From positions 4,792 to 25,896 of the IMG/VR virus record IMGVR_UViG_3300030110_002888: DNA of 21,105 nucleotides. One strand, 5' to 3'. The position numbers and the translations under genes were made by a program. Under the pieces are notes generated by a model, which saw only the letters and a program-made list of their open reading frames with translations, had not been told where the DNA came from and ran no database searches. Source of the stretch: a virus. This document shows, in pieces, positions 1,958 through 12,243 of the stretch. The first letter of the stretch is position 1. Every line of letters starts with the position of its first letter.

Positions 1958-1986
1958 AACAACAATAACAAAAAAGAGGAATGAGT

Positions 1987-3189
1987 ATGAGTGATAATAT
2001 GAATGAAATAAATGATGAGATGCCAGTGTGGACAACCCACCAAATAGAGACTGCCGCTATGCAACATGCAGAGGGTGAAGGCTATGCCTTCTTAGAGAAA
2101 GGAGGAAGAACCAAAACTACGTGTGATTGGGACTTTGAGCCTTACGTACTACCTGCTGTGATGAACATAGTAGACCACCCTGAGGGTATAGAAGACGGGG
2201 GATATGTAGTAACAGATGCTTACAGAGGTGAGCCTAACCTGTTTATGATATTGAATCCTAACGTAAGAACAGAACAACAACCAGCAGGTGCAATACTTGG
2301 GGCTGTATCAAGCCGTTATGCTATTGCATCTTATACAGATGTGTTCCTACCTATGTTAGAACATGCTAACAATCAGGGATGGGATGCTAAAATCACATGT
2401 TATGATTTTGGTAAGAAAGCACGTATGGACATCAACATCAAAACAACTGTTGACAAGAACGACCCAACAAGACAGAGACAAGTAGGTGATTTATACAACT
2501 ACGGAGTTACTATACACACTAGCCTAGATGGTAGTGGCTCATTCAAAATCAGTGGTGTAGCGGAAAGGCTTGCTTGTACAAATGGTATGGTGACTACAAG
2601 GTCAAAGAATCTAATGACACTTAGACACACAAAAGGCGGTGTAGGTAAGATTGATTTCAGACTACTAAGCAACGCTATTACAAGTATGCTCAAAGAAGTG
2701 GAGACTGAACTAGAACAAGTCGAACTGATGAGCGACTTTGCTATGGACAATGAAATGTTTGAGAGACTACTAGTAGCCGCTAAAGACAGAAAGATACTCA
2801 CACTACCTAACGCTAAACCTGTGTTTGGTAAGGGTAGCAAAGTGATTCAAGACTACAACATAACAAGCGGATATGGATTCAGAGCCGCTATGATGGGTTG
2901 GTCACAACCTGAGGCAGACTTCGTTAAGGTTGAAGGTGAGTCTGTTGGTACAGCGTTCCATGCTTACAATGTACTTACTGGTGTACTAACACACAAACCT
3001 ACATGGAGAGGCCCATCTAAACTAAGCGGTACTGGTACTGCTATCCTAGAGGGTAGTGCTTTGGCTATGGGTGCATTAGATACAAGGCTACAAGCAGTTC
3101 ACTCATTGATGAGAGATGTTGTAGACGGTACAATTGACCTAGCAGACTACGTTACTCCACAAGAAGCGATGGGAATTGTGGTACAATGA
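1987..3189 (+). CDS. DUF932 family protein
   Basis: A 400-residue member of the DUF932 (phage/plasmid-like) family. The family's two recognisable blocks are present: VSSRYAIASYTDVFLPMLE at about residues 107-125, and a HTSLDGSGS...ERLACTNGM block at about 177-201, the latter matching the 'SHDGS...R.VCtN' signature. DUF932 proteins are widespread in phages and plasmids; some have been linked to recombination or DNA processing, but no firm activity is known. It is the first gene after promoter copy 1. In-frame ATGs are at 1981 and 1987; 1987 is chosen because the AGAGGA site at 1975-1980 abuts 1981 directly but is six bases from 1987. Its stop overlaps the next ATG. Confidence 0.8.
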   Translation: MSDNMNEINDEMPVWTTHQIETAAMQHAEGEGYAFLEKGGRTKTTCDWDFEPYVLPAVMNIVDHPEGIEDGGYVVTDAYRGEPNLFMILNPNVRTEQQPAGAILGAVSSRYAIASYTDVFLPMLEHANNQGWDAKITCYDFGKKARMDINIKTTVDKNDPTRQRQVGDLYNYGVTIHTSLDGSGSFKISGVAERLACTNGMVTTRSKNLMTLRHTKGGVGKIDFRLLSNAITSMLKEVETELEQVELMSDFAMDNEMFERLLVAAKDRKILTLPNAKPVFGKGSKVIQDYNITSGYGFRAAMMGWSQPEADFVKVEGESVGTAFHAYNVLTGVLTHKPTWRGPSKLSGTGTAILEGSALAMGALDTRLQAVHSLMRDVVDGTIDLADYVTPQEAMGIVVQ

Positions 3190-5659: not shown

Positions 5660-5985
5660 GGGCTGACCATAAACTTAGACAACGTGGTTGGCAACCAACA
5701 GTGATACATCTATCGAATGGTGATGGTAATACATATTGTCGTGCAAAAAATAGAACATGGCCTGACAACTTCATGAAAGATAGTGTAGCACGTACACTAC
5801 CTAAATGCCCTGCTTGCTTAGAAGAACTAAGTAGACGTAAACTGTTAATTGTATCACATAGAGAACAAGCCCACATCAATACAGAGAAGCAAAAGCAAAT
5901 CAGATTAGAGAGAAAAAGGGAAGAAGAATCTAACTCACCTCTGTATCTAGTAGACTATATAAATAAATTAAGTAAGAGTGGTTGA
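5656..5985 (+). CDS. Small zinc-finger-like protein with charged tail
   Basis: A 109-residue protein with putative metal ligands His18, Cys28 and Cys51-x-x-Cys54 (in TVIHL, NTYCRA and KCPACLEEL). The order His...Cys...CPxCLEEL is familiar from small actinobacterial and phage proteins whose function is not established. A long charged helix rich in Lys, Arg and Glu follows (about 78-92). The final codons (VDYINKLSKSG) read through promoter copy 2, so this gene's 3' end and the next gene's promoter share DNA. The start is an ATGA junction. Confidence 0.65.
   Translation: MRADHKLRQRGWQPTVIHLSNGDGNTYCRAKNRTWPDNFMKDSVARTLPKCPACLEELSRRKLLIVSHREQAHINTEKQKQIRLERKREEESNSPLYLVDYINKLSKSG
5953..5974 (+). 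promoter_or_regulatory. Archaeal TATA promoter, repeat copy 2
   Basis: Exact copy of the 22-base element, with the TATA box at about 5956-5964. It lies inside the 3' end of the preceding coding region, and the predicted start of transcription is near 5982-5987, just before the ATG at 5990. It would give the next gene an almost leaderless transcript. Confidence 0.85.
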
Positions 5986-5989
5986 TAAT

Positions 5990-6355
5990 ATGACTAAGGA
6001 AAATAATATTGACACGATGGATACTTTTGTTTTTACATCAGATAAAGTCCATGCCGACTTATACAGCGTCATAGTGGACTTGGACTTGATAATCAGGAGG
6101 CATTCAGGGCCACCTGCTGACAAATCAATAGAGCATCTGACTAACAACAAGGATGCATTTGAGAAAGATGCATTGAGATTGATATGGAGCATAGTCCATG
6201 CTAACCTAGATGTAGATACAATAGATGATGAATCACCACAGAAAGGGCAAGCAGGTCTGTTTCCTACAAGAGTAGGTAGACCTGACATCACACATCTAAT
6301 GTGGCAGTTGAAGAACTACAACAAGAAAACTGAAAAGAAGTTTGCTGAATACTAA
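5990..6355 (+). CDS. Hypothetical 121-residue protein
   Basis: An unrecognised, mostly helical acidic protein with a phrase RRHSGPPADKS in the first half and KGQAGLFPTRVGRP in the second. The open frame extends to GTG 5978, but the ATG at 5990 fits a transcript starting about 25-30 bases after the TATA box of promoter copy 2. It appears to be a single-gene unit: its stop interlocks with the stop of the minus-strand gene (CTAA at 6352-6355), so the two genes converge with no spacer. Confidence 0.7.
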   Translation: MTKENNIDTMDTFVFTSDKVHADLYSVIVDLDLIIRRHSGPPADKSIEHLTNNKDAFEKDALRLIWSIVHANLDVDTIDDESPQKGQAGLFPTRVGRPDITHLMWQLKNYNKKTEKKFAEY

Positions 6356-7149
6356 GGATTCAACCAATCAAGCGATTCGTTTAGTTGCCTTTGTTCGTTT
6401 GACATTAAATCTTTCATAGGTGCTATCACCCTTGGGTCACCTGTATTGTAAGCAGCGTCTACAATGGGTTTAGCATATTCTTCAAGCGTAGGTAGGTTAC
6501 TTTGAAACTCCCTAGAGGCATCTAAAAACTCATCTGTATAATATGGCTTAGGCATGTGGCGAGTTTCTCCGCCTCTCATGTTGAACTGAGGGTCAATCAC
6601 CTTCACCTTTCGATTATCATACTCAGGTATCTCCACTCCTTCATTTGGGAACTCAGCCCAGTTCTGAGGCTTAACATCCCACATCCTCAATCCCTGTGTG
6701 ATAGGCATTTCTTGATACATTCTACTTCTTATATCCCTGTGTAATCCAATGTCATCCCAATCTACATTAGCCTCAAGTGGGTCGCCTCTTCTCTGTGTGA
6801 ATGCAACAGCGTTTCTATTCTGAACATCTTGCTCTCTCATGCTAGGTGTGTCGTTCCATTGTAGTCGCTCACCCGTTTCTCTGTCTTGCATAAGAAAATC
6901 AGGTAGACCCTTCGGGGCAGCATGTAGTTCCTCCCTCTCGAAATACTCAGGGTACATCTCAGCAAGCCTGTCTAAGAGCATCGCATTTGCTATCCCCTCA
7001 CCGCTTCCGAACTTGGACACATGAGGAACATCAGGGCTTTCGTATGCGGTTCTGTAAGTACCTGCTCCTATCTGTTCCTCCATGTCTTTAGGTACAAATG
7101 GTTTCATAGCCTTGAGTAACGCCCAAGCAATCTCAAACGCTTCACTCAT
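6352..7149 (-). CDS. Protein-kinase-like protein (viral kinase fold candidate)
   Basis: The only minus-strand gene in the window, 265 residues. Its motifs match a minimal protein-kinase-like fold: a glycine loop IGAGTYRTAY (27-36), a possible ATP-anchoring lysine in HVSKFG (Lys46), a catalytic-loop-like WDVKPQNW (Asp158, Lys160, Asn163), and a metal-binding DFG-like VKVIDPQF (Asp186). Spacing from the catalytic loop to this Asp is normal for kinases. The DFG phenylalanine/glycine and the HRD histidine/arginine are not conserved. Marine tailed viruses carry small kinase-like proteins with a Gly loop and an 'NW' catalytic loop, some of unknown activity. The start ATG at 7149 is the only early one; upstream on this strand I see no clear TATA box or Shine-Dalgarno. 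It faces away from promoter copy 3. Confidence 0.6.
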   Translation of the reverse strand: MSEAFEIAWALLKAMKPFVPKDMEEQIGAGTYRTAYESPDVPHVSKFGSGEGIANAMLLDRLAEMYPEYFEREELHAAPKGLPDFLMQDRETGERLQWNDTPSMREQDVQNRNAVAFTQRRGDPLEANVDWDDIGLHRDIRSRMYQEMPITQGLRMWDVKPQNWAEFPNEGVEIPEYDNRKVKVIDPQFNMRGGETRHMPKPYYTDEFLDASREFQSNLPTLEEYAKPIVDAAYNTGDPRVIAPMKDLMSNEQRQLNESLDWLNP

Positions 7150-7208: not shown

Positions 7209-7230
7209 GACTATATAAATAAATTAAGTA
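7209..7230 (+). promoter_or_regulatory. Archaeal TATA promoter, repeat copy 3
   Basis: Exact copy of the 22-base element, TATA box at about 7212-7220, in the divergent intergenic region. The upstream sequence (AACTTGGAC) closely resembles that of copy 1 (AGTTTGGAC). It serves the run of small genes starting at 7248. Confidence 0.85.
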
Positions 7231-7247: not shown

Positions 7248-7334
7248 ATGAGGAACAGATTATTATGCCGTTGGTGTGGTGCTAAAGTACACTGGGGGCA
7301 TGACAGAAAAAAGAAATGCGAGGAATGTAAATGA
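7248..7334 (+). CDS. 28-residue zinc-ribbon peptide
   Basis: A very small basic peptide with Cys7-x-x-Cys10-Gly, a 13-residue spacer, and Cys24-x-x-Cys27. It is the first open frame after promoter copy 3, about 36 bases from the TATA box, and its stop overlaps the next ATG. Its layout equals the minimal zinc ribbons elsewhere in the window. The length makes independent proof difficult, but the position and junction support translation. Confidence 0.55.
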   Translation: MRNRLLCRWCGAKVHWGHDRKKKCEECK

Positions 7335-7534: not shown

Positions 7535-7729
7535 ATGAGTAGTTATTACACTATTATGTTGAGATACACAACAGACTCAGGTGAACCTTGCAGTCCACCA
7601 CCACACATAACTGACAGAATGGCTATGGCTGTGGATGTGCTACATGAGATGGGTTTTGGTATGGATGTAGTTTATGGACAATGTACAGACAAACTATTCA
7701 AGCAAGCAGAAAAGGAGATGAGTGAATGA
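7535..7729 (+). CDS. Hypothetical 64-residue protein
   Basis: A small protein reading MSSYYTIMLRYTTDSGEPCS at the start, followed by a helix containing MAMAVDVLHEMGFGMDVVYG. The pattern strand-loop-helix-strand suggests a small alpha/beta fold. The coding sequence starts directly after the previous stop, and AGGGG lies about ten bases upstream. Its stop overlaps the start of the MNIFVLD-family gene (ATGA). No family is recognised. Confidence 0.65.
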   Translation: MSSYYTIMLRYTTDSGEPCSPPPHITDRMAMAVDVLHEMGFGMDVVYGQCTDKLFKQAEKEMSE

Positions 7730-8274
7730 ATATATTTGTATTAGATAATGACCCTGTAAAGGCAGCACAAGCGATGGACTGTGTGAGAGTGCCGAAAATG
7801 GTCACTGAGTCAGCACAGATGATGGCATCAGCCTTGCGTAGACATGGTGCTACTGATGAGCAGATGCCTCTTACTAAATCAGGTAAGCCGTATCGTGGTG
7901 GTTACAAACATCACCCATGCACGATTTGGGCGGGAGATAGTCGTGCCAACTTTAATTGGTTGGCTCGTCACGCACAGGCATTACTCACCGAATACACAAA
8001 TCGTTTTGACAAAATACATGCTTGTAGTGGGCCAATCCATATTATGTCCTGTAAAGACTACATCATCCCCGAAGGTGGATTGACACAGTTCGCATTGGCT
8101 ATGCCTGATGAGTATAGACCTGAACCTATTGATGGTGAGATTGTATATCACGCCTACCCAAAGTTCGCAGTAGAAGCATACCGAGCCTACTACCACAGCA
8201 AAGCAGACAGTAAAGGCGGTGTGCATTACAGACACACAAGTCCTCCTAACTGGTGGATGGGGGCGACAGCATAA
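7726..8274 (+). CDS. MNIFVLD-family conserved viral protein
   Basis: A 182-residue protein of a family I recognise from marine tailed viruses: it starts MNIFVLDNDPVKAA, continues with a KMVTESAQMM helix (24-33; usually KMILESAQML), has a HHPCTIWAGDSRANFNWL block at about 62-79, and ends with a PPNWW motif (173-177). To my knowledge the function is not experimentally known. The family's typical CDKHV segment reads MDCVRVP here, so one conserved His is absent. The start is an ATGA junction with an AGGAG site upstream. The stop overlaps the next ATG as TAATG. Confidence 0.7.
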   Translation: MNIFVLDNDPVKAAQAMDCVRVPKMVTESAQMMASALRRHGATDEQMPLTKSGKPYRGGYKHHPCTIWAGDSRANFNWLARHAQALLTEYTNRFDKIHACSGPIHIMSCKDYIIPEGGLTQFALAMPDEYRPEPIDGEIVYHAYPKFAVEAYRAYYHSKADSKGGVHYRHTSPPNWWMGATA

Positions 8275-8387: not shown

Positions 8388-8409
8388 GACTATTTAAATA
8401 AATTAAGTA
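8388..8409 (+). promoter_or_regulatory. Archaeal TATA promoter, repeat copy 4 (variant)
   Basis: Copy of the repeated element with one change: TATTTAAATA instead of TATATAAATA (a single A-to-T). The downstream AATTAAGTA is fully conserved. The ATG at 8419 is only about 28 bases from the TATA box, so the transcript should be leaderless. Confidence 0.8.
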
Positions 8410-8418
8410 AGTGATGTT

Positions 8419-9000
8419 ATGAAAAAAATTAGCGAAATGGATTGGACAGACGGCACAGGTGCATCTCTACAAAAGGTAGGAGGTATACTGAAAAAGGCTG
8501 AGAAGGAGAGGCATGATGCGAATGAGGATTACTTCTCTAACCCACGTATCCTAGTCATGGATTTGGATACAGGCTCATCGTTTGTCATTAGGACAAAGTA
8601 CGAAGAGGGTGGTAAGACCAAGGGGTACGGATACAGAAGATGTTCTTCTGTCAGGCAACGTATAACCGCTAAGTTACCTACGAAGAAGATAATAGCGAGA
8701 CTGGTTAGAATGGCTATACGTTCATTCGTACCTAAGGATGCTCCGTCAGAACAATACAGTGTAGTTGTACAGAAGGCGATAGAGGACATAGCAGCAGAGA
8801 TAGCAGACGACAGTAAGTGGGAAGCATCTGATGATAAGTATGGTAGCGCAGTTACGGCAGCAGTATCAGACATACTAGGTCATACGTGGACTGATAGAGC
8901 AGGTGATTCTATCACATGTATAGAGGCTATACCTGCACCGTTCGTTGTGATGGATACAGAAGCAGTCAAGGAAATGGCAGAGAGAGTAGTGGTGGAATGA
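8419..9000 (+). CDS. Hypothetical 193-residue protein
   Basis: An unrecognised protein. The first 35 residues are charged and helical, then a beta-rich region (RILVMDLDTGSSFVIRTKY), a basic helix (PTKKIIARLVRMAIRSF), and a long Ala-rich helical part including AIEDIAAEIADDS and AVTAAVSDILG. No membrane segment is evident. It is the first gene after promoter copy 4, probably from a leaderless transcript, as no good Shine-Dalgarno precedes the ATG. Its stop overlaps the next start. Confidence 0.7.
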   Translation: MKKISEMDWTDGTGASLQKVGGILKKAEKERHDANEDYFSNPRILVMDLDTGSSFVIRTKYEEGGKTKGYGYRRCSSVRQRITAKLPTKKIIARLVRMAIRSFVPKDAPSEQYSVVVQKAIEDIAAEIADDSKWEASDDKYGSAVTAAVSDILGHTWTDRAGDSITCIEAIPAPFVVMDTEAVKEMAERVVVE

Positions 9001-11811: not shown

Positions 11812-12235
11812 GATAGATAGAAGAGAAGAGTGGATGGGTTTAGGTATCATACTTACTGAATTAAGAATGAAGGTATGGGTAGAAAATAGAAACGATAGCA
11901 AATTAGGTATGAGAGTACAACGTAGAATAGGTTGGCGTACCTTATTTACCACTGGCACATTCATGCAACAACAATGTGTAAGTGTGTTCCTCAACACATT
12001 CGATATGGAATTAAAAGAATACTATTATGATAAAGATAGCATAAACAAATGGTTGTTTCTATTAGATAGGTTAGAGATATTATACAATATACGTTCAGGA
12101 TTATCTGACCAAAGCGGATGGCATATGTTACGATGGGTTGTAGATAACCCTGTTCCTAAATCTTGGGACGAGTTCTTAGTTTGGGTAGAGTCGTATGACA
12201 ATGAGAGTGAGATGGTTGAAGGACTATATAAATAA
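11804..12235 (+). CDS. Hypothetical 143-residue protein
   Basis: An unrecognised, basic then acidic protein with many aromatic residues (MNRIDRREEWMGLGIIL, LEKEYYYD-like central part, WVVDNPVPKSWDEFLVWVE near the end). The frame extends to GTG 11795, but the ATG at 11804, overlapping the previous stop as ATGAATAG with AGGTG six bases upstream, is preferred. Its last five codons (EGLYK and the TAA) lie inside promoter copy 5, so the gene's end is constrained by promoter sequence. No domain is assigned. Confidence 0.65.
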   Translation: MNRIDRREEWMGLGIILTELRMKVWVENRNDSKLGMRVQRRIGWRTLFTTGTFMQQQCVSVFLNTFDMELKEYYYDKDSINKWLFLLDRLEILYNIRSGLSDQSGWHMLRWVVDNPVPKSWDEFLVWVESYDNESEMVEGLYK

Positions 12236-12243
12236 ATTAAGTA
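12222..12243 (+). promoter_or_regulatory. Archaeal TATA promoter, repeat copy 5
   Basis: Exact copy of the 22-base element, TATA box at about 12225-12233, driving the replication gene cluster. The clamp-loader ATG at 12253 is about 28 bases from the TATA box, giving a leaderless transcript. It overlaps the 3' end of the preceding coding region, whose TAA stop lies in the element. Confidence 0.85.

Follow-up and report, generated by a model that had tools for sequence, protein, structure and literature searches.

A divergent, predicted protein-kinase-like family with a convergent partner gene in a magrovirus-like archaeal virus

The gene and its viral source

Does a reading frame that runs against the replication genes of a virus, and that carries a set of kinase-like motifs, encode an active protein kinase? 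We examined this question in a window of 21,105 nucleotides, i.e., the whole stretch of DNA that was analyzed (bases 4792-25896 of the 56,086-base IMG/VR record IMGVR_UViG_3300030110_002888). The reading frame occupies positions 6352..7149 of the minus strand, opens with an ATG start codon, and encodes a protein of 265 aa (P0001). The motifs that the first-pass annotation had read in it, IGAGTYRTAY, K46, WDVKPQNW (residues 157-164), and VKVIDPQF (residues 182-189), were all found as claimed. When compared with its 76%-identical homologue (L003), the frame has a dN of 0.15 versus a dS of 0.61, and the two sequences differ at 45, 25, and 73 sites in codon positions 1, 2, and 3, respectively. Hence, it is a genuine gene under purifying selection. 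The same annotation had described it as the sole gene on its strand; this is true of the window, where it is the only solid minus-strand gene, but not of the 56-kb record, in which structural genes share that strand.

The record encodes a family B polymerase, a replication factor C small subunit, a PD-(D/E)XK nuclease, and a thermosome-type chaperonin. Replication genes occupy its plus strand, and beyond ~31.9 kb of the whole 56-kb record the minus strand holds the structural genes. PolB, clamp loader, and chaperonin genes are thus present together with replication and structural modules that point in opposite directions, and the published descriptions of Magrovirales match both this gene set and the opposed modules (PMC10768690, PMC12999244). 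Judged by gene content against published criteria, the source matches a magrovirus-like archaeal tailed virus. Within the phage collection, haloarchaeal tailed viruses have the closest polymerases (~22% identity). We infer Poseidoniales as the host, and the viruses carrying the kinase-like gene probably infect marine archaea.

Two other genes of the record deserve mention. The chaperonin (L005 4712-6214, record ~29711-31213) is a group II, thermosome-type protein of 500 aa whose scores with thermosome models are much better than those with GroEL models; by contrast, GroEL is the chaperonin named in the ICTV profile of Aoguangviridae. The protein encoded at 7726-8274 of the plus strand contains a pyrimidine-dimer DNA glycosylase domain (PF03013, E 3e-6) and may be the product of a viral gene for repair of light damage.

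Homologues, invariant residues, and predicted fold

The kinase-like protein had no sequence match in Pfam, PHROGs, NCBIfam, PADLOC, or PDB, and a tblastn search of 50,697 phage records gave no match that would support homology. A weak match in a Seonamhaeicola genome (33% over 61 residues) involved the C-terminal part only and was treated as chance. In profile-profile comparisons, the scores with classical kinases (PF00069, 1.7%), fructosamine kinases (PF03881, 1.2%), and APH (PF01636, 0.2%) were not significant; the three profiles match each other at 89-97%. The best of these weak alignments put glycine loop on glycine loop and IDP on IDP. No profile match places the protein among the classical kinases, and the family has [WAGSF]-D in place of HRD and D-[PAG]-x-F in place of DFG. 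Likewise, no Pfam or PADLOC match connects it to HipA or toxin-antitoxin kinases, and its neighbor is convergent and does not form an operon with an upstream antitoxin. Since the profiles join no known family, we call the protein kinase-like by its predicted fold and active-site residues, outside known sequence families.

Homologues were collected by starting from the 76%-identical relative and the corresponding places in related contigs, followed by scans with growing alignments. IMG/VR yielded 17 divergent homologues (20-76% identity), which makes 18 sequences with the query. The alignment contains 17 invariant columns (window numbering): M1, F5, E6, A8, W9, L12, K13, G30, K46, G48, Q119, D158, N163, D186, F189, P202, and P228. 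Conservation of Lys46, Asp158, Asn163, and Asp186 had been set beforehand by the first-pass annotation as the point on which its kinase reading could fail, and all four residues are invariant in 18/18 sequences. The chance that four pre-named residues would all fall among the 17 invariant columns is, by a rough estimate, ~1e-5, or, equally roughly, ~6e-5 when K, D, and N residues only are counted. Because the residues were named before any homologue was known, their invariance is a genuine prediction that was borne out.

The conserved positions coincide with recognizable kinase elements, all encoded on the minus strand. The glycine loop IGAGTYRTAY (residues 27-36, positions 7042..7071), with G30 invariant and G28 present in at least 90% of sequences, lies between predicted strands 26-29 and 33-37. 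Lys46 (7012..7014), the candidate ATP lysine, is in strand 43-48, and the invariant Gln119 (6793..6795) occupies a hinge-like position at the end of strand 115-120. In the catalytic-loop equivalent DVKPQN (Asp158-Asn163, 6661..6678), HRD is replaced by W-D here and by A-D, S-D, G-D, or F-D in other homologues, and Lys160 is changed to Gly in three homologues (L018, L021, and L038). The metal-binding motif D-P-Q-F (Asp186-Phe189, 6583..6594) replaces DFG; this position reads D-P-x-F in the family, with D-A or D-G in L021 and L038. Overall, the glycine loop, ATP lysine, catalytic aspartate, asparagine, and metal-binding aspartate of the kinase-like superfamily are all present (G30, K46, D158, N163, and D186 in 18/18). 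The N-terminal signature F-E-x-A-W-x-x-L-K (residues 5-13, 7111..7137), with its six named residues invariant in the 18 sequences, forms helix 3-14 in the model and was, among all loci examined, exclusive to the kinase-like family. The 18-sequence alignment contains no conserved acidic residue in the helix-C region. This is not fatal to membership in the kinase-like fold superfamily, because kinase-fold families with atypical motifs and without an identifiable ion-pair Glu have already been described (PMC9758233).

AlphaFold2 modeling on the 18 sequences gave a confident model (pLDDT 82.1, pTM 0.83), with residues 97-111 being the sole stretch with pLDDT below 50; a run on three close sequences only had reached a pLDDT of 38. 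The N-terminal part of the model consists of strands 26-29, 33-37, and 43-48, helix 53-65, and strands 73-77 and 115-120; helix 134-147, loop 157-163, and strands 164-167 and 180-184 follow, and then D186. The elements succeed one another as in kinases: strands 1 and 2 flank the glycine loop, strand 3 carries K46, a long helix precedes D158-N163, and the last core strand precedes D186. When the model was compared with the PDB by Foldseek, AceK was the best match (E 1.2e-4, probability 0.99), and all 50 PDB matches listed, AceK, SidJ, and LicA among them, are kinase-fold proteins or are described as kinases. Against viral models, a Solivirus kinase was best (E 6.8e-5, probability 1.00), followed by small phage kinases; a few uncharacterized or polyprotein entries were also among the matches in this library. 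Superpositions on kinases are loose, with large rmsd values and low TM-scores: the leading matches reach 0.33-0.36 when normalized by query length, and the highest value by target length is 0.48. The model has a predicted two-lobed, protein-kinase-like fold, although TM is only ~0.35. A confident model of another fold was the second point on which the kinase reading had been staked; the model obtained has kinase-like element order, and its leading structural matches are kinases.

The convergent partner and the proposed activity

The kinase-like gene is opposed to the replication genes in 18/18 loci and ends against a plus-strand gene (5978..6355) that encodes a 125-aa protein of an uncharacterized family. 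The two genes overlap by 4 nt in the window, and a homologue of the partner lies tail-to-tail with the kinase-like gene in 17/18 loci, the overlap ranging from 4 to 113 nt where measured. Partner proteins (~110 aa in the family) had no known relatives in our searches, and residues D36, R40, N76, G93, and H106 are invariant in the window protein and 16 homologues. A profile search of 22 contigs, a biased sample of fragments found mostly through the kinase gene, revealed both genes in 17, the kinase-like gene alone in one (L022), the partner alone in none, and neither gene in four. The pair occurs in four genomic contexts. In one it is flanked by a helicase-like gene and a DUF932 gene, and in another by homologues of the genes at 8419/9162 and the 10522-RFC block; the third is its place in the window, and in the fourth, that of L003, the pair follows the thermosome gene at the junction with other-strand genes. 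That the pair is kept together across these contexts suggests a functional link between the partner and the kinase-like gene. The kinase-like gene was previously unclassified, and its consistent opposition to replication genes and its linkage to a convergent partner are new here. The DUF932 protein of the window (1981-3189, plus strand; PF06067, E 4e-12; phrog_1221) has its gene beside the kinase pair in roughly half of the relatives.

We consider it probable that the gene product is a small and highly divergent protein-kinase-like phosphotransferase that acts on a host or viral protein and is linked to the convergent partner protein. The predicted fold, the leading kinase matches, and the invariance of the four named residues all uphold the kinase-like interpretation. 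As predicted, ATP-Mg would be bound by the glycine loop, Lys46, Asn163, and Asp186, with Asp158 acting as the catalytic base. Because the Arg of HRD is absent (non-RD), the enzyme probably does not depend on activation-loop phosphorylation. The invariant N-terminal FExAWxxLK helix probably serves in docking or regulation. A host or viral protein would most likely be phosphorylated during infection, and the small protein encoded by the convergent gene may be a regulator or a substrate of the enzyme. On our best reading, the family is new, very divergent, kinase-like, non-RD, and without a conserved alpha-C glutamate, and it is probably catalytic.

Comparison with known systems places the protein at a distance from each of them. 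It resembles classical Ser/Thr kinases (PF00069) in predicted fold, element order, glycine loop, ATP lysine, catalytic aspartate, asparagine, and metal-binding aspartate, but differs from them by the absence of HRD, DFG, and the alpha-C Glu and, as noted above, by its lack of a Pfam match and its low profile-profile score. AceK (isocitrate dehydrogenase kinase/phosphatase, PDB 3lcb) is likewise an atypical kinase; however, it has ~560 residues and a regulatory domain, shares only 11-13% identity, and superposes loosely. Kinase-like proteins of Xylella phage Paz (V5Q7I5), Xylella phage Cota (A0A6F8ZJY8), and Ralstonia phage RSB1 (B5BTU3) have the same small size and are among the structural matches (probability 0.99-1.00, TM 0.38-0.48 by target length), but identity in the structural alignment is 12-13%, tblastn supported no homology, and these are viruses of bacterial hosts. 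T7 gp0.7, also a virus-encoded kinase of a lytic tailed virus, is a functional analogy only (PMC8008677): there is no detectable sequence relation, and the non-RD active site, D-P-x-F, the FExAWxxLK helix, and the convergent partner gene all belong to the archaeal-virus protein.

Characterized phage protein kinases are counted as two, the T7-like and the 933W enzymes (PMC8008677), and we found no description of a protein kinase in marine archaeal viruses in the literature searched. If active, the conserved kinase would be a candidate means of taking over the host in an ocean lineage that is abundant but uncultured. The family stretches the kinase fold to sequences beyond the reach of profile searches and offers clear residues to mutate, along with one candidate partner. 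A more far-reaching proposal, that a viral protein kinase family new in sequence reprograms marine archaeal hosts and that the overlapping convergent gene is its controller or substrate, the two moving as a unit in a two-gene cassette, is tentative, and we put it forward as a speculation.

To a kinase fold with other chemistry or a small-molecule substrate we assign a small probability. Such a protein would be an AMP-transferase or a glutamylase, of which there are examples among atypical kinase-fold enzymes, or a metabolite kinase of the fructosamine kinase/APH type. Fructosamine kinases have I-D-P after the last core strand, which D-P-x-F resembles, and the weak profile alignment coincides precisely with this motif; in addition, none of HRD, the alpha-C Glu, and DFG has its canonical form, and AceK, SidJ, and LicA are among the structural matches. 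However, neither the fructosamine kinase (1.2%) nor the APH (0.2%) profile score is significant, and the model is small and lacks a large substrate-binding insert.

Somewhat slimmer are the chances that the convergent pair serves not host takeover but as a self-contained accessory cassette, toxin-antitoxin-like or for superinfection exclusion, with the kinase as effector under the control of the partner. The pair does stay together in 17/18 loci across four contexts and is missing from some related contigs, and the phage 933W kinase provides a precedent for abortive infection (PMC8008677). Against this, the genes converge and share no operon, which is unusual for toxin-antitoxin pairs, no PADLOC match was found, L022 has the kinase without the partner, and magroviruses are thought to be lytic.

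The first-pass annotation had allowed for a pseudokinase on the grounds of the degenerate DFG, and one could add to this the replacement of HRD by W-D or A/S/G-D, the lack of a conserved alpha-C Glu, and the loss of Lys160 in three homologues. Pseudokinase families usually lose at least one residue needed for ATP-Mg binding or catalysis. Here, all of these residues are invariant in 18 sequences down to 20% identity, and D-x-x-F keeps its Asp. Given this invariance, we favor an active enzyme and regard a kinase fold that serves as a non-catalytic binding scaffold or regulator as improbable. Finally, that the protein is not a kinase at all, its motifs being coincidental and the modeled fold wrong, is very improbable: TM-scores are low, no profile match is significant, and the three-sequence model was poor (pLDDT 38), but the four residues named in advance of any homologue turned out to be invariant, and an independently made model puts them in the right elements with kinases as leading matches.

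The upstream spacer and a repeated element

Gene orientation also bears on the suggestion, made at first pass, that the kinase-like gene is controlled separately from the rest. In favor is that the gene opposes the replication genes in every one of the 18 loci; against it, the strand is common to the structural genes, and the orientation of a TATA-like element upstream is ambiguous. Separate control is thus only indirectly supported. The space between the kinase-like gene and the plus-strand genes contains a 19-bp element, GACTATATAAATAAATTAA (7209..7227, plus strand), whose complement holds TTTATA 70 nt upstream of the kinase start, and TTTATA is found 60-83 nt upstream of the kinase gene in 13/18 loci. 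We had considered TTTATA as the kinase's own promoter. The strand claim was withdrawn for three reasons: TTTATAAA, the core, is a palindrome; a divergent gene shares the spacer; and the site in the window is the complement of the plus-strand repeat GACTATATAAATAAATTAA. The spacer likely contains a promoter region of ambiguous direction.

Five copies of GACTATATAAATAAATTAA, four perfect and one with a single mismatch, were found on the plus strand (1936-1954, 5953-5971, 7209-7227, 8388-8406, and 12222-12240), versus 0.03 expected. A plausible plus-strand start codon follows each copy at a distance of ~12-26 nt, and the genes concerned are the DUF932 gene, the kinase partner, a small gene near 7250, the gene at 8419, and RFC. 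No copy was present in the structural half of the record. From its placement, GACTATATAAATAAATTAA is probably an early promoter of the TATA type that gives near-leaderless transcripts. Elsewhere in the record, beyond the window, non-coding DNA contains a pair of nearly identical AT-rich sites (CTTTCTTTTATAAAGG; L004 1388/1395 and 2824/2831) in the same register.
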